From the NCBI RefSeq assembly GCF_023062595.1, contig NZ_JALLAN010000003.1, positions 270,346-334,345 on the forward strand: a stretch of 64,000 nt of DNA. Reading direction: 5' to 3'. Below are positions 32,095 through 62,400 of this stretch, piece after piece. This stretch comes from Arthrobacter rhizosphaerae (GTDB lineage: Bacteria; Actinomycetota; Actinomycetes; Actinomycetales; Micrococcaceae). The notes under the pieces are model-generated. The model saw only the letters and a program-made list of their open reading frames with translations. It was not told the origin of the DNA and made no database searches. The position numbers were made by a program, and so were the translations under genes. How positions within the stretch are numbered: the stretch's first letter is position 1; each line of letters begins with the position of its first letter.

Positions 32095-32700
32095 ATGACT
32101 GCTGAAGGCAACGGCACCATCGTCGGCGACGACGGACTGGCGAGACCCCCGTGGGCGGCTAATGACCCGCTGCTGCGCGAGTACTACGACACCGAATGGG
32201 GACTTCCCGTTCGTGATGAGCAGGGGCTGTATGAGCGCATCAGCCTTGAAGCCTTTCAGGCCGGACTCTCCTGGGCAACCATTCTGCGGAAACGTCCCGC
32301 ATTCCGTGCAGCTTTTCATAACTTCCACCCCGAGACTGTCGCTGCCTTTACCGAGGCAGACGTCGAACGGCTGCTGCTGGATTCCGGAATCGTCCGGAAC
32401 CGGCTCAAGATCCGTGCAGCCATTACGAATGCCCAGGCCACCATCGCATTGAGGCCCGACGGCGGCTTGGTGGACTTTGTGTGGGGGTTCAAACCTCCAA
32501 CCACACCCAGGCCGACGACGCTTGCGGAGACCGCCACTACGTCGCCTGAATCAATCGCCCTGTCCAAAGCTCTCCGCAAGCGCGGATTTGTGTTCGTTGG
32601 ACCAACCACCATGTACGCCCTGATGGAAGCCATCGGGATGATCGACACCCATCTTGTGGATAGCCATAGGAGAGGTTCGTCCGGCATCTGGAGTTCTTAG
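32095..32700 (+). CDS. DNA-3-methyladenine glycosylase I (Tag family), atypical
   Basis: 201 residues. Segments EYYDTEWGLPVRDEQGLYERISLEAFQAGLSWATILRKR and RKRGFVFVGPTTMYALMEAIGMIDTH match Tag, which excises 3-methyladenine from DNA. Compared with E. coli Tag as I remember it, the zinc ligands appear lost: the N-terminal Cys of the CGW motif is Pro, the YHDNEWG His is Tyr, and the C-terminal Cys is absent. It may fold without zinc. It lies 47 bases after crgA. Confidence 0.85.
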   Translation: MTAEGNGTIVGDDGLARPPWAANDPLLREYYDTEWGLPVRDEQGLYERISLEAFQAGLSWATILRKRPAFRAAFHNFHPETVAAFTEADVERLLLDSGIVRNRLKIRAAITNAQATIALRPDGGLVDFVWGFKPPTTPRPTTLAETATTSPESIALSKALRKRGFVFVGPTTMYALMEAIGMIDTHLVDSHRRGSSGIWSS

Positions 32701-32743
32701 CCTCTGCCCGAGTAAAGCCGCGGCACTTCGCCTGTGGGCAAAG

Positions 32744-33284
32744 TTATCCACAGTGTGCATAAGTTCCGGCCACCCTGGCGGCTTGGCCCCGGTAGAAGCC
32801 ACAACGCTGTAGTTCCGGCCAAATCACACTTTTGTAAGTTATTAACACTGTGGATCCACCTGTGGATATCCAAGGACCTACTGAAACTTTCCAACGGCGC
32901 GGGCTCCTGCACCTTCTTCTCCACAGACCTTCCACAAAGTTATCCACATTTGGGGATAACCTCTCCTGCTACCCGCTACTCACCTCTCATTTTCGTCCCA
33001 GTGGCAGGGAATACCGCCAATCCACAGACAGCCCGCGTTATTAACACCTGTGCATAATCCTGTGGATTTGAGCATCAAGGCACCCTTTGAGCGTTCACAA
33101 GGGAGCTTGGAAGTGGGAAAAGTTGTCCACTTAACAACAATCACGGTCTCCTTAGTTATCCACAGTTGGGGACAAAAGTGCCCGCCACTCGTGGAAAACC
33201 GCCAGCACTGGGCTTCTGTCCCGCCGAATGACCTGAACTACAGCCATGTAAGTTACTCACAATGTGGATAAGCCGTGTGGATAA
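32744..33284. other. Cluster of five perfect DnaA boxes outside the dnaA locus
   Basis: Perfect TTATCCACA occurs at 32744-32752, 32940-32948 and 33156-33164 (plus strand) and 33263-33271 and 33276-33284 (minus strand). Near matches include TGTGGATAT at 32861, TGGGGATAA at 32951, TGTGCATAA at 32754 and 33049, and TTGTCCACT at 33123. Two copies of GTTATTAACAC lie at 32838 and 33037. The 700-base spacer between convergent genes (tag and rhomboid) has no coding capacity. It looks like origin or DnaA-titration DNA. Confidence 0.75.
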
Positions 33285-33344
33285 AGTTCCATGGACCGAC
33301 GGCCCGCCTATTCCCGGGTCGCGTAGCCGCATAATCGGTGCCAC

Positions 33345-53979: not shown

Positions 53980-55044
53980 ATGACGAGTAGCGAAGCCTCC
54001 ACGCAGCGGATTCCGCCGTTTGTGTCTTTGGGGTCAGCGCGTGCCATGGTGGCGCCTTCCACGACTCAGGCTTTGCCGCCGTTCCGCGCTGGCTCGATTT
54101 TCGGGGAAGCCAGCCTTGCAGTTTCACGTGAAACTATCTCTGGGGGGCTCAGCAACGTTATGGACACCATGGACGATTCCAGCCCCATCGCGAGGGACCT
54201 TGCCCACGAGAACAGACGCCGTGAACGGCTTCTGGGCCGTGAGCTTCCTAAACCTGACAAGACGCGAGTCTTCACCGTCTCGAATCAAAAGGGAGGCGTG
54301 GGTAAGACCACCACGACGGTTAACATTGCGGCCGCCCTTGCCGCGGCTGGACTCCAGGTGCTCGTCATTGACATTGATCCGCAGGGCAATGCGTCAACTG
54401 CCCTCGGCGTCGAACACCACGCGGACATCGACAGCATCTACGACGTCCTGATCAACGACATACCGTTGCATGAAGTTGTTGCGCCTTGCCCCGACGTCGA
54501 GAACCTGATCTGCGCTCCCGCCACCATCCACCTCGCCGGTGCAGAAATTGAGCTCGTCTCATTGGTTGCCAGAGAACAGAGACTCCGCAGGGCTATCGAT
54601 GTCTATGCCAAGGAGCGCGCCAAGAATGGCGAGGAACGCCTCGACTACATCTTCATCGACTGCCCACCCAGCCTTGGCCTCCTCACCGTCAACGCATTCT
54701 GCGCTGCGGATGAAGTTCTCATTCCCATCCAGTGTGAGTACTACGCACTGGAAGGTCTGAGCCAGCTGTTGAAGAACATCGAGATGATCCAGAAGCACCT
54801 GAACGCAGATCTCGAGGTGTCGACAATTCTCCTGACGATGTATGACGGGCGAACCAACCTGGCGGCCCAAGTGGCAGCCGAGGTTCGCCAGCACTTCCCG
54901 AAGCAAGTCCTGGGCGCTGTAGTTCCGCGCTCTGTCCGTATCTCGGAAGCGCCAAGCTACCAACAGACCGTGATGACGTATGACCCCTCCTCCAGCGGCG
55001 CACTTTCGTATTTGGAAGCTGCCGCCGAAATTGCTGAACGCTAG
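53980..55044 (+). CDS. parA: Chromosome partitioning ATPase ParA (Soj)
   Basis: 354 residues from ATG 53980. The deviant Walker A motif KGGVGKTT is at residues 104-111, with IDCPPSLG further on. The first 90 residues are an extension, and codons 48-52 read Val-Ser-Arg-Glu-Thr because a perfect parS (54121-54134) is in frame. An alternative ATG at 54160 would put that parS in the leader. Forms nucleoid-bound gradients that move ParB-parS complexes. Confidence 0.93.
54121..54134. other. parS site inside the parA 5' region
   Basis: GTTTCACGTGAAAC, a perfect 14-bp palindrome, codes VSRET in the ParA frame. ParB binding here could affect parA expression. Confidence 0.9.
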
Positions 55045-55109: not shown

Positions 55110-56393
55110 ATGAGCGAAAAGAGACGCGGCCTGGGCCGTGGACTTGGAGCACTCATTCCAAGTTCCGCGCCGACTAACGTATCCGGCAACGGGTCACCGT
55201 CGCCGTCTCGGCCCGTGGATCTTTTCTTTCCTGAAGCACGCAAGACCCCCTCGGCGGTCCCTGCTCCCACAGAGGTTGATGCTGCCACCGTCCCAATCTC
55301 AGAGAAACCGGCAAAGCCCGCTGTAGGTGGAACAAAGAAGGCCGCCGGCCCGGAGACGAACGGGCCAACCAAGGCAGCAGCTTCTGGTACCCGGAAGAGC
55401 GCCGCAACTCCGAAAGCTACTCCGGCTACTGGAGCCCAGCCCAAAGGCGCGGACCATGACAGTGATGCCCGCGCAGATCAAACTTCCGGCTCAGATGCCA
55501 GTCCATCAGTTGCCTCGGGTGAAACTGCCAACTCGGATATCGGGGACGCCAGCCAAGACGTTGAGCTGGTGGAAGTCCCAGGTGTCCGTTTCGCGGAAAT
55601 TCCTGTTACGGACATTCATCCCAACCGGAAGCAGCCTCGTTCTATCTTCGATGAAGACGACATGGCTGAGCTCGTGCACTCTGTTCGCGAAATCGGTGTC
55701 CTCCAGCCAATTGTGGTGCGTACATCAACCGAAAAGGGTGGAGAACCTTACGAGCTCGTCATGGGTGAGCGTCGCTGGCGTGCAGTTCAGGCCGCAGGCC
55801 TGGCTACGATTCCTGCGATCGTCCGTGACACCACAGATGACGATCTTCTCAGGGACGCGCTGCTCGAGAACCTGCACCGAAGCCAGCTGAACCCTTTGGA
55901 GGAAGCTGCTGCTTATCAGCAGCTGCTCGAGGACTTTGGAACTACTCACGAGCAGTTGGCAGACCGCATCGGCCGTTCGCGCCCGCAGGTTTCCAATACG
56001 CTCAGATTGCTCAAGCTGCCGCCCTTGGTCCAGCGACGTGTTGCTGCCAGCGTAATATCGGCCGGCCATGCCCGGGCTCTACTCTCGCTGCCTGATGCCG
56101 CTGCTATGGAACGCCTTGCCCAGAAGATCGTGGCGGAGGGAATGTCAGTTCGTGCTACGGAGGAAGCAGTCACTCTCTATCAGGCGCCGGCTTCTCCCAC
56201 CAAGAACAACGTTCCACGCCCAGGGGCCAGGCACGAACGCTTGGATTATCTTGCATCGTCTCTTTCTGATCGCTTGGATACCAACGTCAAGATCTCCCTG
56301 GGTGCACGGAAGGGCCGTGTGAGCATCGAGTTTGCAAGCGTTGAAGATCTCAATCGCATTATGGAAGTTCTTGCTCCCAACTCAGACAACTGA
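55110..56393 (+). CDS. parB: Chromosome partitioning protein ParB (Spo0J)
   Basis: 427 residues, start fixed by GGAGGGA before ATG 55110. The N-terminal [17 protein letters not shown] is the ParA-contact peptide. A Pro/Ala/Lys-rich linker (about 20-160), the CTP-binding ParB/Srx domain ([26 protein letters not shown]), a helix-turn-helix for parS (about 280-320, [16 protein letters not shown]) and a C-terminal dimer domain follow. Confidence 0.95.
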
Positions 56394-56407
56394 GCCTTCT
56401 TCTTTGA

Positions 56408-56445
56408 GGGGCCTGTTTCACGTGAAACAGGCCCCTTTTTGTTTT
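56408..56445 (+). terminator. parB terminator containing a parS site
   Basis: The 14-bp parS at 56415-56428 is extended on both sides by GGGGCCT/AGGCCCC to a perfect 28-bp palindrome (56408-56435), followed by TTTTTGTTTT. The same sequence can be a ParB site in DNA and an intrinsic terminator in RNA. Confidence 0.9.
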
Positions 56446-57139
56446 ATGTCTGTGTTCTTCATGGTTGGCATAGCTTCGACTTGTTGTCGGTTCAAGGTTG
56501 GAGTGGGCACCCGCTTTTGTTTGCTGTCGCTGATTTCAAGTTTGAGTTGGGTGTCAGGATGCCCTTGCTGCCTTGGAAGTCGCAGCGCTGCTGAGCGCAA
56601 AAGTCTGAAAGCTCCACCCCAGTTAATGCTTCTGGGCTTCATGTGACGGCACCTGGTAGTGGTTACTGTTGGTCCCCAGACTCTTGCTGGCTTTCTTTTG
56701 GAGATACATGAGGCTCAATTTGTAGGCTTCCCCGTTGTCTTGAGGGCTATCCGTCGGTGCAATATCCGACTAGGAGCCAGTTGATCACGATGAGTTCCAG
56801 CCTGGCATACTGTTTGAGCAGCTAATGGCCAGGTATTTTGCCAGTCGATTTGGGCTGCCGTCTTGGACTCGGTTGCCCAATCAGAGTACTAGCCCCATCT
56901 TCTTTGGTAGCCGTCCCACTTCAACGTCATCTTGGAAACCACAAGTTCCGTGATCAAACGTCATCCTGGAATCAAGCGTTGTGTGCTTAGGCGTGATCTT
57001 GTAGATCTTTCACATGGAACGTGTGCTTCGGAGCCATACTGAAATACAGTGCTCTGTTCTTGTTTTGCCGTCCGTGCAAGCTGCCGGCCCGATTCTTCCG
57101 GGTTGAAGTGTACGAGTGGATACCACGCGGCTTTGTCCT

Positions 57140-57153
57140 GTTTCACGTGAAAC
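57140..57153. other. parS site
   Basis: Perfect GTTTCACGTGAAAC with T/A flanks (16-bp palindrome), 747 bases after the parB stop. Confidence 0.93.
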
Positions 57154-57592
57154 AACAACCCGTAGCGACCCCACTATTTCTGTAACTCAACTCGTCGCGA
57201 ATGGCAGTTCACGTTATTTGACCACCTGCGCACATTCTCGACGAACTGCAATCGAGCCGCGCGTCGGATCCCGAGGACCGTCTTGGATCGCTTCCGGTGG
57301 AACCCTTGCACCTCGGCCACTCAATCACTGCACGGAACCTGCACTCAAGGTGCCGCCGCAAGGCGAACCTCGCATGTGAAAATCAACAGGGAGTACGGGC
57401 GCGACGCTAGGTTCCCATGTCTTTCTGGCAAGTTCCCGATATTATTTGCGGACTTGGAGTCTATCTGTCATCTTGCCCCGACTTTTGCACTTGGTATCGG
57501 GTGGCCATGGCTCATGCGGCCGCTACCGAGCTCCGAGCCCTTTCAGCACTAAGCGGGCGAACCAATATTCAGTGAGGCGCAAAATAGTGACT

Positions 57593-57606
57593 GTTTCACG
57601 TGAAAC
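57593..57606. other. parS site
   Basis: Perfect core, extended to an 18-bp palindrome by CT/AG flanks. Confidence 0.93.
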
Positions 57607-58102
57607 AGCCGGTAGAGGCTGGCCCCGTTGGCCTTCTCTTCCTTCTAGCGGGCGTCGGTGAATCTTCGAAGCAGAGAGCCGTGCTGCGCCTTCCCCCGCC
57701 GTGCTGAGGCGTTGGTACCTGGACATCAAGAGGCTCTACCGGGCTGCAGGTCTACGGCTACTTGGCGCCTCAGCTGCCCTGTGGACGCACTCAGAAATTA
57801 GCGCAGTCGTACCCAGACCTATCCCCTGCTGTCTACTGAGCATCCACACCTGCCCGGGGTGCCATGAATTGTCGGATAGCAGGAGAATTGTCCTCGCTGG
57901 CCAGCTGTAAGGATTGTCCGGGCTCTACCGGCAACATCGAGCTTTGCAGATCGCCGCTATCGTTTATAGCGTCTTCAATGCCTATTCGAACGGTTGGCTT
58001 AATCCCTGACGATTGGACACTAAACATCTCCAGTCATACCTGGGCGTTCTGCCGACCCCTACTGGTGATGCCTAACAACCCCTGTGGTCATGACAGAGCA
58101 AT

Positions 58103-58116
58103 GTTTCACGTGAAAC
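58103..58116. other. parS site
   Basis: Perfect core, extended to an 18-bp palindrome by AT/AT flanks. Confidence 0.93.
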
Positions 58117-59130
58117 ATGATCGAGCCCGAACCCGCTCTTTTTGATCGCTGGGTTTAGAGGTGTTACCAAAAGCATCGTGTTGTCGTTCCGAAGGGGGAT
58201 CACAACAGCTCGGTAGTAACCCTGAGTCTTCAGGCAACCTGGGCAGCGGCCAAGGAACGCTGACCACGTTTCAAGGATGAATCAGAGGAGTTGTCGGATG
58301 GCGCGGGCATTACGATCATTCACACAGTCCCCTGTGCCCGGTGCCCTGGCAGCAAGGGATTAGGTGACAAGTCTATGGTGTGAGCCAGCAGGAGAGGATA
58401 CTGAGTGTTTTCTCCCCTGGCCCAGATGCTCCGCGGGAGCCAACCCTCGGGGTTGCCAATCCAGCGGACTCCGAGGCTTACTCGCGGCTTCTTAGGATTA
58501 GTCCTGATAGTTACCGTCTCTGCGTGCCCACGCAGACCCGGCCGTAGCCAGGCGGCGCTAGTAATAGTCCCCGTTAAGGTGACCGGGACAGAGCTGTCAC
58601 GAGGATCTTCCCTCCAGCCATGAAGACTACTTGAACGCTGTCAATAATCATTGAGGACACAGAGAGCTTTCACAGCGGCAAAGCTGACCCGGTCCCGGTC
58701 TGGAGGACTTGGTCGCTCCCCCGGGTGCGTGGCGGCAACGAATGCAAATGACCAATAGTGCCTCCCGCCAGAACAGCAAGTTGGTATGTGCCACCGTGGA
58801 GCGTCGTGCGCCAACCCCTACAGCCATGGCTTCTAACGACTACAAGAGTCGACTCAGTCCGATGGTGTACTGGGGCTTCGTTGTTGATCGTAAGCGACTA
58901 GGCCAGCGTCCCCTGTGGGATCGGACCACTGGGTCTGAATGTGGTGTGGCATCCACTTGAGGGTGGCGGATTCCGTGCTCCGAGATTCCTATCCTTGTAC
59001 ACGATGTCCACCTTGCACTTGGGGTGTGGGTTCAATCTTGCTGTTCTCTTCGTATGCTCAGCGGCTCAAAAATCATAACAGCTTGAACCTGGCCGAGCCG
59101 CTAGAGCGGGGTGTGCACAACTCAGATGCC

Positions 59131-59549
59131 GGTGGATATCGCGGTGGATATCCATGTGGATAACTTTGTGGACAAGGACGCAGTCCCGCCGTCTTGTACT
59201 CGTGGGTCCGTGCGTCACGACTGACACTGATGCGTCCTGCCTTCGGTACCGATTTCCGATTCCTGCGAATGTTTCACGTGAAACGACTCTGAAAACCTGG
59301 TCCACCAGTCATAGGATCCAGATACGAATGAAAAGACGCCTGAAAACGGTGGTTTCTCGCGTCTGCACGGTATGCCTCCTTGCCGATGAACCCATTCTGC
59401 TACCCGCAGCTGCTGCGCCGCACTTCGGGAACGCTACGGTGCTTTGAGAATCTGGAGTGGTGCGGACTAACCGAACGACATCATGCCCTGTGAATTTCCC
59501 CACTTCCACCTGTGGGTAACGCTGTGGATAACTTTTGGATGAACTGTGG
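59131..59549. other. Small DnaA-box group inside the parS region
   Basis: Perfect boxes (reverse orientation) TGTGGATAA at 59155-59163 and 59523-59531. Near matches: TGTGGACAA at 59167, TGTGGGTAA at 59511, and two GGTGGATAT words just before 59155 that repeat at 12-base spacing. The parS at 59271 lies between the two perfect boxes. Confidence 0.65.
59271..59284. other. parS site
   Basis: Perfect 14-bp core, lying between the DnaA boxes at 59155 and 59523. Confidence 0.93.
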
Positions 59550-60151
59550 AATACTCCAGTCCGTGAAGTGCCGACCGCTTCCCAATTTGACGTTTTGCCC
59601 TCTCGAGGAACGGCAAAAAATGTCGTCAAAAATTCCCTGCTGTCCGGTCAGAGTCAGAGTCCCTTGTGCTCGCCACAGTAAATATTGTCGTCGGTCATGA
59701 TGACTCAGCTCCTTGCAAGCAAGGAACAAGACTTGGCCTGGAACGCAGCGTCACTTTCCCTGGGCTCGTAAGAAACAGACGTGCTTGCGGTCGGGCATGC
59801 CGCCGACACCTGGAGTGCGCGTCAGTTGCTTCGCCAACCCCTACTATGAGGCTGCGATGAGCCGAGTTCTATTGCGGCTGTATGCACCTTGAGGAGTTAG
59901 GCAGGCAGCTCGGACTATCGCTGCCTAACTGCCGCCAACCCTGTGGTCTAGCTGAACCCAATGGCTCGCGCACCTAGCCCTATGGCGAGAGCAGCTGACT
60001 GTCAAATGATCGGAAGCAAGCAGATGGGTGGTTCCGACTCTCCTGGCCTGGGGGCTGTCGGGTGGTAGCCGGGGTCTGGGGATGATTGATGTGCTCTTCT
60101 TCTACCCTTCGCTTTTCCGCCGACGACGTCGGTTACGTCAGTCGACGTTCG

Positions 60152-60165
60152 GTTTCACGTGAAAC
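60152..60165. other. parS site
   Basis: Perfect 14-bp core; flanks G/A, so not extended. Confidence 0.93.
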
Positions 60166-60660
60166 ACTCTGGTCCAAGAGTCGTGGTTTCCTGGTGAGTC
60201 ATCATGGGTCAACTTCGTCGGACGGCTGCAGCGGAGCGCTACTCCCGTGAGATAGCAATCGTAGCCGTCGTTTGGCTAAGAGATGTCCACATCGGGTACG
60301 CCGCAAATACAGTATACCGGCGCCGCTGATTGTGTCTGGTCCGTTAATCACGCTCAACTGAACAACGTCGTTTGTGGAAGTTGTGAATGTACACCTGGCT
60401 GGGCTTGGGCATTCGGTGTCTGTCTCGTCCTCCCGGCTCCCCGAAGTATGGATGCTAATGGCGTTAGGCGTACCGAACTGATCACACCCGCTGCCGGTGT
60501 GATTCGATGATCGCCTTGAATGTCTTCTCGGCTGTTATGCCATCTGTTTCCGTGGTCGAGCGCCTTGGTTCCTGGCCAATGCTGATAACCACATTAATTG
60601 TGAACATGGACCCGAGGCTTGAATCAGGAAGTTCAGCCCGCGGAGGGTCGATCCTTCAAT

Positions 60661-60674
60661 GTTTCACGTGAAAC
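60661..60674. other. parS site (first of a close pair)
   Basis: Perfect core, 18-bp palindrome with AT/AT flanks; centre 58 bases from the next site. Confidence 0.93.
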
Positions 60675-60718
60675 ATGCTTAGCGCCTTTCCAAGGAGTGA
60701 TAGTCGGTTGCAGTTGAT

Positions 60719-60732
60719 GTTTCACGTGAAAC
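60719..60732. other. parS site (second of a close pair)
   Basis: Perfect core, 16-bp palindrome with T/A flanks. The pair spacing of 58 bases is far tighter than the 400-1200 bases between other sites. Confidence 0.93.
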
Positions 60733-61290
60733 ACTTCAGTTAGCGTATGAAGGCCAGTGGAGAAGATTCATAGCGAGCGATGCCGCTAAATGCGATGGAC
60801 TTAGCCGGGACGATTGCGATTACCCCGTCTATGGGTAACGGAGGCACCCCCGAAGGCCCACGAGGAGTTCATACACGAGAAGTGATTCCCTGGGACGTAT
60901 TCCCCTACTGCTGAAGTTTCTGTTAATAACTCCCGGACTCGAGTGAAGGGATGGAGCGCCACGGTTGCAAAGGAACCGAAAGTCTCATTTCTTGGTGGTT
61001 TCTACTCCCCGGCAAGGAGACTTAGTGCTTGAAAGCCACCTAGCCGGAAACCCCGTACGTCGAGATCATTCCCACAATCTCAAGTTCGATTGGGGATACA
61101 GTGAACCCGCCAATTAATCGTGTGACTCCCGACAATCCAGCGAATCTCTCTCTCGAACACCAAACACCGCTGGCCCAACAACCCGCCGGCATGGATTCAT
61201 TCCGTTACTGGGTGTCCAGCCTCTGGAGCCTAATCGGCCACAGTTGCCGATACGCGCAGAAGGTGGGGCGGTTGTTGCACTCAGAAGCGC

Positions 61291-61304
61291 GTTTCACGTG
61301 AAAC
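61291..61304. other. parS site
   Basis: Perfect 14-bp core; flanks C/C, so not extended. Confidence 0.93.
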
Positions 61305-61693
61305 CATCTCGTCCAGGTTTTCCGGTTGCACTCTGGAATGTGACCTGATCAGGTTTGGGTTCTGTATGTGAAACCTGGTTGCTGTTCGCCCTCGTTCGAA
61401 GGATTAGCGCAGCTCCATCGTGAAGTGGTCTGCAGTAGAAGTCGGAATTTTTGTGCGCGGCCAGAGCTCCAGCTTGGGAAGCGCACGTCAAGTGGCTCGA
61501 AGGGAGCCGTGGGATAGGAGCAAGGTGACTAGGCATGTAACTCCGTATGGCAACCTACCAAGTTGGCCAAGCGGCGCAGTGGTTAACTGTCCCCTGTTCC
61601 GCGCCAGACTCATCTCAGTTTTTCTGAAGTAAACAGATTAAGAGCTGTTCTCCTCGCAAGGCCAACGGATTCGGTTCAGAGAGGGAATCCAAT

Positions 61694-61707
61694 GTTTCAC
61701 GTGAAAC
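61694..61707. other. parS site
   Basis: Perfect 14-bp core; the last before the trxA terminator, 380 bases from the trxA stop. Confidence 0.93.
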
Positions 61708-61877
61708 GATGGATTGATGCCTTGCGGCTCGACAACGTGTCGCCGAAGTACAGCTATTACCTTGCAAACGGATGAAGGCTCAGTTGCCAGGGCCCAGAAG
61801 ACCCCGGATAGACGAAACAAGCTGAAGGCCCGGAAAACAGGGGCTCTTCCCCGGCAGAGTGTAGCCGATTCTATGAG

Positions 61878-61914
61878 GAACCTGGCTACTCGTGGTTGTC
61901 GAGACGCCAGGTTC
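61878..61914. other. Two-stage stem-loop, possible structured RNA
   Basis: GAACCTGGC (61878-61886) pairs with GCCAGGTTC (61906-61914); after a 2x2 internal loop, CTCG pairs with CGAG around a 7-base loop. No T-run follows. It could be part of a small RNA or a protein-binding hairpin. Confidence 0.4.
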
Positions 61915-62020
61915 TGTTCCCAAGAAAAGACACCAAAGCAACAACAGGAATCTGTTGAATATCAGAAGAAAACTCCCACGGGCCAACACGGGCGCTTGAT
62001 CGATGCTCCGTGGCAGGCAC

Positions 62021-62052
62021 AAAAAAAGCGGCCCCCATAAGGGGGCCGCTTT
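62021..62052 (-). terminator. Intrinsic terminator of trxA
   Basis: A 12-bp stem (AAAGCGGCCCCC with GGGGGCCGCTTT) around an ATAA loop is followed on the minus strand by a T-run (complement of 62021-62027). Confidence 0.92.
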
Positions 62053-62073
62053 CTGCCAACTCTGCTTTGTGGG

Positions 62074-62400
62074 TCAGGACAGGACGTCCGCAAATTCCTT
62101 CTCAAAGAACTGCTTCGGCCTGGCGCCGATAACGGTGCTCTTCACTTCGCCGTCCTGGAACAGGTAGACAGCGGGAATCGAGGTGATGCCGTATTCCGCG
62201 GCGATTGCGGGATTGTCATCCACGTTCACCTTGACGACTTCAACTTTTTCCCCGTACTGCACCGAGATCTCATCCAAGATGGGGCTCAGCTTACGGCAGG
62301 GGCCGCACCACTCTGCCCAGAAGTCGACAATAACCGGCTTTTCTGAGGCCAATACATCTGTGCCGAAACTGGAGTCTGTTACGTCTTTTGCGTTACTCAT
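62074..62400 (-). CDS. trxA: Thioredoxin
   Basis: 108 residues, with the redox motif WCGPC (Cys32 and Cys35) in DFWAEWCGPCRKLSP and the cis-Pro in TSIPAVYLF. Cytoplasmic dithiol donor, reduced by TrxB encoded just upstream (49-base gap). Ends before a strong terminator. Confidence 0.96.
   Translation of the reverse strand: MSNAKDVTDSSFGTDVLASEKPVIVDFWAEWCGPCRKLSPILDEISVQYGEKVEVVKVNVDDNPAIAAEYGITSIPAVYLFQDGEVKSTVIGARPKQFFEKEFADVLS

Follow-up and report, generated by a model that had tools for sequence, protein, structure and literature searches.

What is the gene-free interval between the convergent genes parB and trxA of Arthrobacter rhizosphaerae, and why is it filled with parS, the sites of ParB? 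We addressed this question in a window of 64,000 nucleotides (contig NZ_JALLAN010000003.1, positions 270,346 to 334,345 of assembly GCF_023062595.1). The answer that we favor, and consider probable, is that the parB–trxA gap is a dedicated centromere of the ParABS partition system with a built-in module of DnaA boxes, where the replication initiator would bind. A first-pass annotation of the same letters had described a parS-filled block; it was right about the array but incomplete, since it missed the DnaA-box module.

parS sites and predicted DnaA boxes in the parB–trxA gap

The window contains exactly 11 parS sites (GTTTCACGTGAAAC), all of them perfect. As the first-pass annotation had counted, nine lie at 57140–61707, one in the parB terminator (56415) and one in parA (54121); a search allowing up to two mismatches found no extra site in the window, and at that tolerance shuffled sequence gives a mean of 0.21. 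The genome's own assembly (5,022,511 bp in 48 contigs) has the same 11 exact sites and no further one (reversed control, 0), so that 7.6 kb holds every exact parS of the genome. Start to start, the nine gap sites are spaced by 453, 510, 1168, 881, 509, 58, 572 and 403 bp, in agreement with the distances of about 400–1200 bases, apart from one 58-base pair, that had been stated earlier, and the gaps are somewhat more even than under uniform placement (coefficient of variation 0.56 vs 0.81). The content of guanine and cytosine (GC) is 54.7% in the gap, whereas the preceding 3 kb have 58.3%, a drop of about 4 points where about 10 had been claimed. With parS above chance, parA and parB adjacent and dnaA near, the locus has the features of a ParABS centromere (Table 1).

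Table 1. Features of the parA–trxA region, in window positions (ORF, open reading frame)
Feature	Position	Strand	Basis
parA	53980..55044	+	First listed ORF start; Pfam AAA_31 (9.1e-58)
parS in parA	54121..54134		Motif search
parB	55110..56393	+	Pfam ParB_N, HTH_ParB, ParB_C
Gene-free parS desert between convergent parB and trxA, proposed centromere	56394..62076		ORFs, parS, shuffles, comparison
parB terminator hairpin, inner stem formed by parS 56415-56428	56406..56437	+	parS search, hairpin; covariation
parS	57140..57153		Motif search
parS	57593..57606		Motif search
parS	58103..58116		Motif search
DnaA cluster A, four 9-mers at 12-bp pitch (starts 59131, 59143, 59155, 59167)	59131..59175	-	Sequence, conservation
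Module parS, 107 bp past exact box of cluster A	59271..59284		Motif search
DnaA cluster B, TTACCCACA and TTATCCACA at 12-bp pitch	59511..59531	-	Box search
parS	60152..60165		Motif search
parS, doublet with 60719 site (58 bp start to start)	60661..60674		Motif search
parS, second of doublet	60719..60732		Motif search
parS	61291..61304		Motif search
parS	61694..61707		Motif search
Terminator-like hairpin of trxA	62032..62044	-	Hairpin search
trxA, right border of desert	62074..62400	-	ORF; Pfam Thioredoxin

Two clusters of predicted DnaA boxes enclose one of the parS sites. All four 9-mers of cluster A are related to TTATCCACA, and the one at 59155 matches it exactly. Exact minus-strand TTATCCACA also occurs in the dnaA–dnaN interval of all 23 readable loci, and boxes recur upstream of dnaA; the dnaA–dnaN occurrence supports, at the level of sequence, TTATCCACA as the DnaA box of this clade. 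The genome has 41 exact boxes, two of them in the gap and five at 32.7–33.3 kb of the window. The latter cluster (32650–33330; 11 boxes when one mismatch is allowed) lies 15 kb from dnaA, between methyladenine-glycosylase and rhomboid genes (Pfam), and finds a match in 55 of the 61 genus genomes; the region around dnaA thus has several conserved box clusters.

For comparison, 80 named loci were retrieved by ParB, the nearest belonging to Pseudarthrobacter, Paenarthrobacter and Arthrobacter. A group of 24 loci, which includes the window and one Sinomonas, was chosen for having the DnaA clusters. In the 132 kb of gap DNA of this group, the minus strand carries all 48 exact boxes and 75 of the 80 boxes with one mismatch, and nearly all boxes fall in two clusters 321–413 bp apart (L003, with a transposase gene between the clusters, was excluded from this distance).

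The position of the boxes relative to parS is nearly fixed. In 19 of the 24 loci, an exact box is followed by the next parS after 92–122 bp; random placement, repeated 20,000 times, gave such a distance in 1.97 loci on average and in 8 at most. In L015, the distance is 108 bp when measured from a box with one mismatch. Of 206 genus genomes, 155 carry the pattern Box-N{92,122}-parS, whose reversed control gave 0 among the matches listed. Outside the genus the pairing is rare: the family sample (395 genomes) yielded five such genomes, from three other genera, and the order sample (248 genomes) yielded seven with the pattern, one of them outside the family. The 145 listed box–parS gaps include 17 at 95–98, 94 at 104–109 and 23 at 116–120 bp, three groups offset from each other by roughly one 12-bp pitch, which is what an array would give whose perfect box is not always the same one. 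When distances are measured from an anchor defined on the whole array, 47 of the 76 distinct modules fall no more than 2 bp from the median, a count in which five gaps (161–164) are included although probably mis-anchored. Among spacers that share a length, pairwise identity has dropped to near chance (median 30% over 300 pairs, 9% of them above 70%).

Gap DNA matches 130 of the 206 genus genomes, the genome's own included. Among the matches listed it aligns at the terminator parS, at 59110–59181 or at the second cluster, save for an 84-bp match within the own genome. Since genus-wide alignment is nearly confined to these elements, the fine-scale work used close species; 17 stretches were retrieved from genus genomes and ten close species were aligned. 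In all ten, cluster A and the module parS are 117 bp apart, start to start, while most other landmark distances vary with a standard deviation of 7–82 bp.

Several observations weigh against giving this spacing too specific a role. The exact pattern is missing from 51 of the 206 genus genomes; in L002, L014 and L016, the nearby parS lies on the opposite side of cluster A, whereas L018 has no parS near it. After redundancy at the level of spacer identity is removed, 54 modules are left, of which 29 deviate from the median by 2 bp or less, so that the spacing is not absolute. Other distances are kept as well: from parS to cluster B it is 241–244 bp in nine close species and 265 bp in the tenth, and the parS doublet is kept at 63–64 bp, six helical turns, in all ten (L182-L192), its second copy being degenerate by one or two bases in some species. 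With the parS-to-B distance so nearly constant in these species, inheritance of the spacing becomes more plausible, and part of the geometry may reflect inherited lengths. Also, 14 of the 38 deserts longer than 3 kb have no such DnaA clusters; the module is therefore no general requirement of a parS desert. We regard the box–parS geometry as strong, not absolute.

The boxes could still be only a site for titration or control of DnaA, like datA/DARS, that lies by chance in gene-free DNA near oriC, in which case the gap would be a centromere and the enclosed parS would have no special role. Noncoding box clusters do recur, at 32.65–33.3 kb, in dnaA–dnaN and upstream of dnaA, and four of the 24 loci have no parS on the usual side. 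We nevertheless consider this reading unlikely, given a box-to-parS distance that stays nearly constant though the spacers that fill it are so dissimilar.

Evolution of the gap in Arthrobacter and its relatives

In the 24 Arthrobacter-type loci the gap measures 4.1–9.2 kb and contains 5–11 exact parS, the terminator site included. Arthrobacter koreensis and Arthrobacter gandavensis have 4.8-kb gaps with six and five exact parS, respectively, and Glutamicibacter has a gap of 3.9 kb with four. A gap of only 70–139 bp with a single parS occurs in two Psychromicrobium loci and in three of the six from Rothia. In the nine loci from Cellulomonas and the two from Kineococcus, exact parS is absent downstream of parB, and such exact or one-mismatch sites as they have precede the end of parB. 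All 41 sampled genus genomes carry 6–12 exact parS, which cluster on one contig each among the genomes listed. In the comparison of the parB–trxA interval that the first-pass annotation had proposed, length and parS content are kept, sequence is not, and there is no conserved frame. In A. koreensis (L021:14972-16156, minus strand), a peptidoglycan-amidase gene (PG_binding_1/Amidase_3) stands between the desert and trxA; it is missing from the interval in the window, a hint at the origin of the gene-free spacer.

The alignment of the ten close species separates what changes from what is kept. The flanks are 93–100% identical, save for the variable first half of the aligned part of parB (84%), and the gap is 60–76% identical per 250-column window. 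Over its whole length the gap has an identity of 65.7%, compared with 82.8% at four-fold degenerate sites of the C-terminal part of parB and of trxA. Against this background, invariant runs of at least 11 columns number ten: seven are parS, two are the DnaA clusters (TGTGGATAACTTTGTGGATAG in cluster A and TTGGGGATAAC in cluster B) and one is a 13-mer near trxA. Two of the seven parS runs are only 12–13 bp long, their last bases being variable. That seven of ten invariant runs are parS in so divergent a gap points to selection on these sites. As invariant 11-mers are nearly all sites for ParB or DnaA, the earlier view that the block is a dedicated centromere, and not a case of parS dispersed among genes, gains support.

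A second alternative is that the spacer is decaying DNA of former genes, with ordinary parS and a length that has no function. It would account for the amidase gene that A. koreensis retains at a place where the window has none, and for the fast evolution of the spacer and the insertion sequences within it. It would leave unexplained why the length has stayed at 5.0–5.7 kb in ten close species despite many indels, and why parS number 6–12 in every sampled genus genome; we consider decay improbable.

Origins, genes and transcription in the gap

A second or bipartite replication origin at the module is far less probable still. One-strand DnaA-box arrays at a 12-bp pitch would suit an origin, and boxes at this pitch are also found in dnaA–dnaN and upstream of dnaA. 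Base composition, a weak test of unwinding, was compared in 23 loci: the 40-bp GC minimum of the module (0.33–0.45) is like that of the remaining desert (means 0.37–0.47), and that of dnaA–dnaN is lower (0.28–0.38). The module shows no dip in GC below that of the desert at large, and it is probably not an origin.

The absence of credible genes, as claimed at first pass, held in every search. The longest ORF wholly within the gap has 108 amino acids, a length that is reached or exceeded in 60 of 60 dinucleotide shuffles (mean, 182 amino acids), and there are two ORFs of at least 100 amino acids, compared with 7.2 expected. The six longest (108, 106, 97, 93, 89 and 87 amino acids) matched no Pfam family at an E-value of 0.01; there was no Rfam match at the gathering score in 53–64 kb and no tRNA found by ARAGORN in 50–64 kb. 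The ten-species alignment of the gap has no conserved frame and no long conserved stretch. On the Pfam search, the shuffled-ORF test and this alignment, we rejected a coding gap; a plasmid origin was rejected after a megablast search against a plasmid collection gave no match. Unrecognized small genes or regulatory RNAs are hardly to be expected, for although missing families do not mean missing genes and the invariant 13-mer near trxA is left without explanation, the ORFs are no longer than shuffled ones and neither Rfam, Pfam nor the alignment points to any.

Another observation concerns the left part of the gap. Contig C44 of this assembly ends in 84 bases that follow closely on genes for tRNA-Gln and tRNA-Glu, and these bases recur without a mismatch at 57041–57124. 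This is either a small duplication or an assembly-end artefact; among 198 loci, a 29-base piece of the shared stretch occurs only in copies of this region.

Both borders of the gap have terminator-like hairpins, and that of parB is the parS palindrome lengthened by outer arms. In nine loci, 98.3% of the cells of the terminator stem pair, and six of 13 pairs have changed on both sides, above both controls. A parS lies within 160 bp of parB in 12 of the 24 loci, three of which have no long stem and were left out of the covariation set; the terminator is parS-based in nine of the 24. ParB at the terminator parS could influence termination.

The suggestion that spreading ParB excludes transcription, and hence genes, was not supported. 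The desert of L003 contains a transposase gene (rve) and that of L184 an IS21-type pair (Mu-transpos_C_2/rve and IstB_IS21), so genes can at least land there. Sigma-70-like promoters number one, compared with 3.4 expected, in 56.3–62.5 kb. Convergent neighbors that both end in terminator-like hairpins are a simpler reason for silence.

Initiation and segregation at the proposed centromere

ParB bound to cytidine triphosphate (CTP) loads at parS and then slides to form a partition complex. In the dedicated centromere that we propose, ParB-CTP clamps would load at some ten parS and slide across a spacer that need only be DNA without genes and without incoming transcription; ParA and SMC would then act on the partition complex. 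The composite module in mid-gap, with its array of three to four DnaA boxes (12-bp pitch), its parS set at a nearly constant distance and its other box cluster, would place the initiator in the path of the clamps, and DnaA at the array and ParB from the enclosed parS would probably meet on the same DNA. Conserved ParB sites and DnaA-like sites at a nearly fixed distance suggest that replication and segregation are coupled there; binding of either protein, like loading, sliding and the direction of coupling, we infer from this arrangement. In one direction, DnaA would gate the action of ParB or ParA at the centromere; in the other, ParB and ParA would modulate the DnaA bound some 10.5 kb away from the dnaA–dnaN interval. 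More tentatively, and with rather less confidence than in the centromere itself, we envisage a stereospecific switch in which a DnaA filament, nucleated on the 12-bp-pitch array at a near-fixed linear and rotational distance from one parS, controls the loading or release of ParB there, or is dismantled by ParB or ParA; a single cis element amid the fast-evolving, gene-free centromere would then tie initiation to segregation of the origin.

How does this arrangement compare with known systems? It resembles chromosomal ParABS centromeres in its exact parS consensus, its several sites near the dnaA region and its adjacent parA and parB, and differs in that all exact sites lie in 7.6 kb, nine of them in one gene-free block of conserved length (the comparison being with the 80 loci). 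Chromosomal parS counts given in one article are 10 in Corynebacterium glutamicum, 3 in Mycobacterium smegmatis, 21 in Streptomyces coelicolor and 5 in Caulobacter crescentus (PMC7022226). The parS of C. crescentus is described as bound by DnaA, which enables segregation (PMC6399470 and PMC6667618, on Mera et al. 2014). Predicted DnaA sites at the centromere, beside parS, are found here as well, in another phylum and with a geometry conserved over a genus. At rctA/parS2 of Vibrio cholerae chromosome II, parS is reported to lie among initiator-binding sites, and ParB2 to spread over an inhibitory initiator site and affect initiator binding (PMC3688505, PMC6399470). Our module likewise embeds parS among candidate initiator sites; unlike it, rctA/parS2 is on a secondary chromosome, and its initiator is RctB, not DnaA, with different sites. 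In Bacillus subtilis, Soj (ParA), under the control of Spo0J (ParB), is stated to regulate DnaA (PMC7022226). The Escherichia coli datA and DARS loci are described as noncoding DnaA-box clusters outside oriC (PMC4585315). The clusters in the gap share this feature. We know of no parS that is part of datA or DARS.

Among the listed open-access matches, no title concerned a chromosomal parS array of Arthrobacter or DnaA boxes in one. The parS survey of Livny et al. (2007) may already tabulate this parS count. The main interest of the locus is the conserved DnaA–parS geometry, of which the listed open-access papers hold no description. Few cis-acting handles exist for the open question of how bacteria link initiation to segregation; those named in one article are Caulobacter parS and V. 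cholerae rctA (PMC6399470). The region is a clear case of a bacterial centromere in which the sequence is free to change and the length and binding sites are kept, and its compact element of near-fixed geometry, present in 155 of 206 genus genomes, makes the link between initiation and segregation testable.

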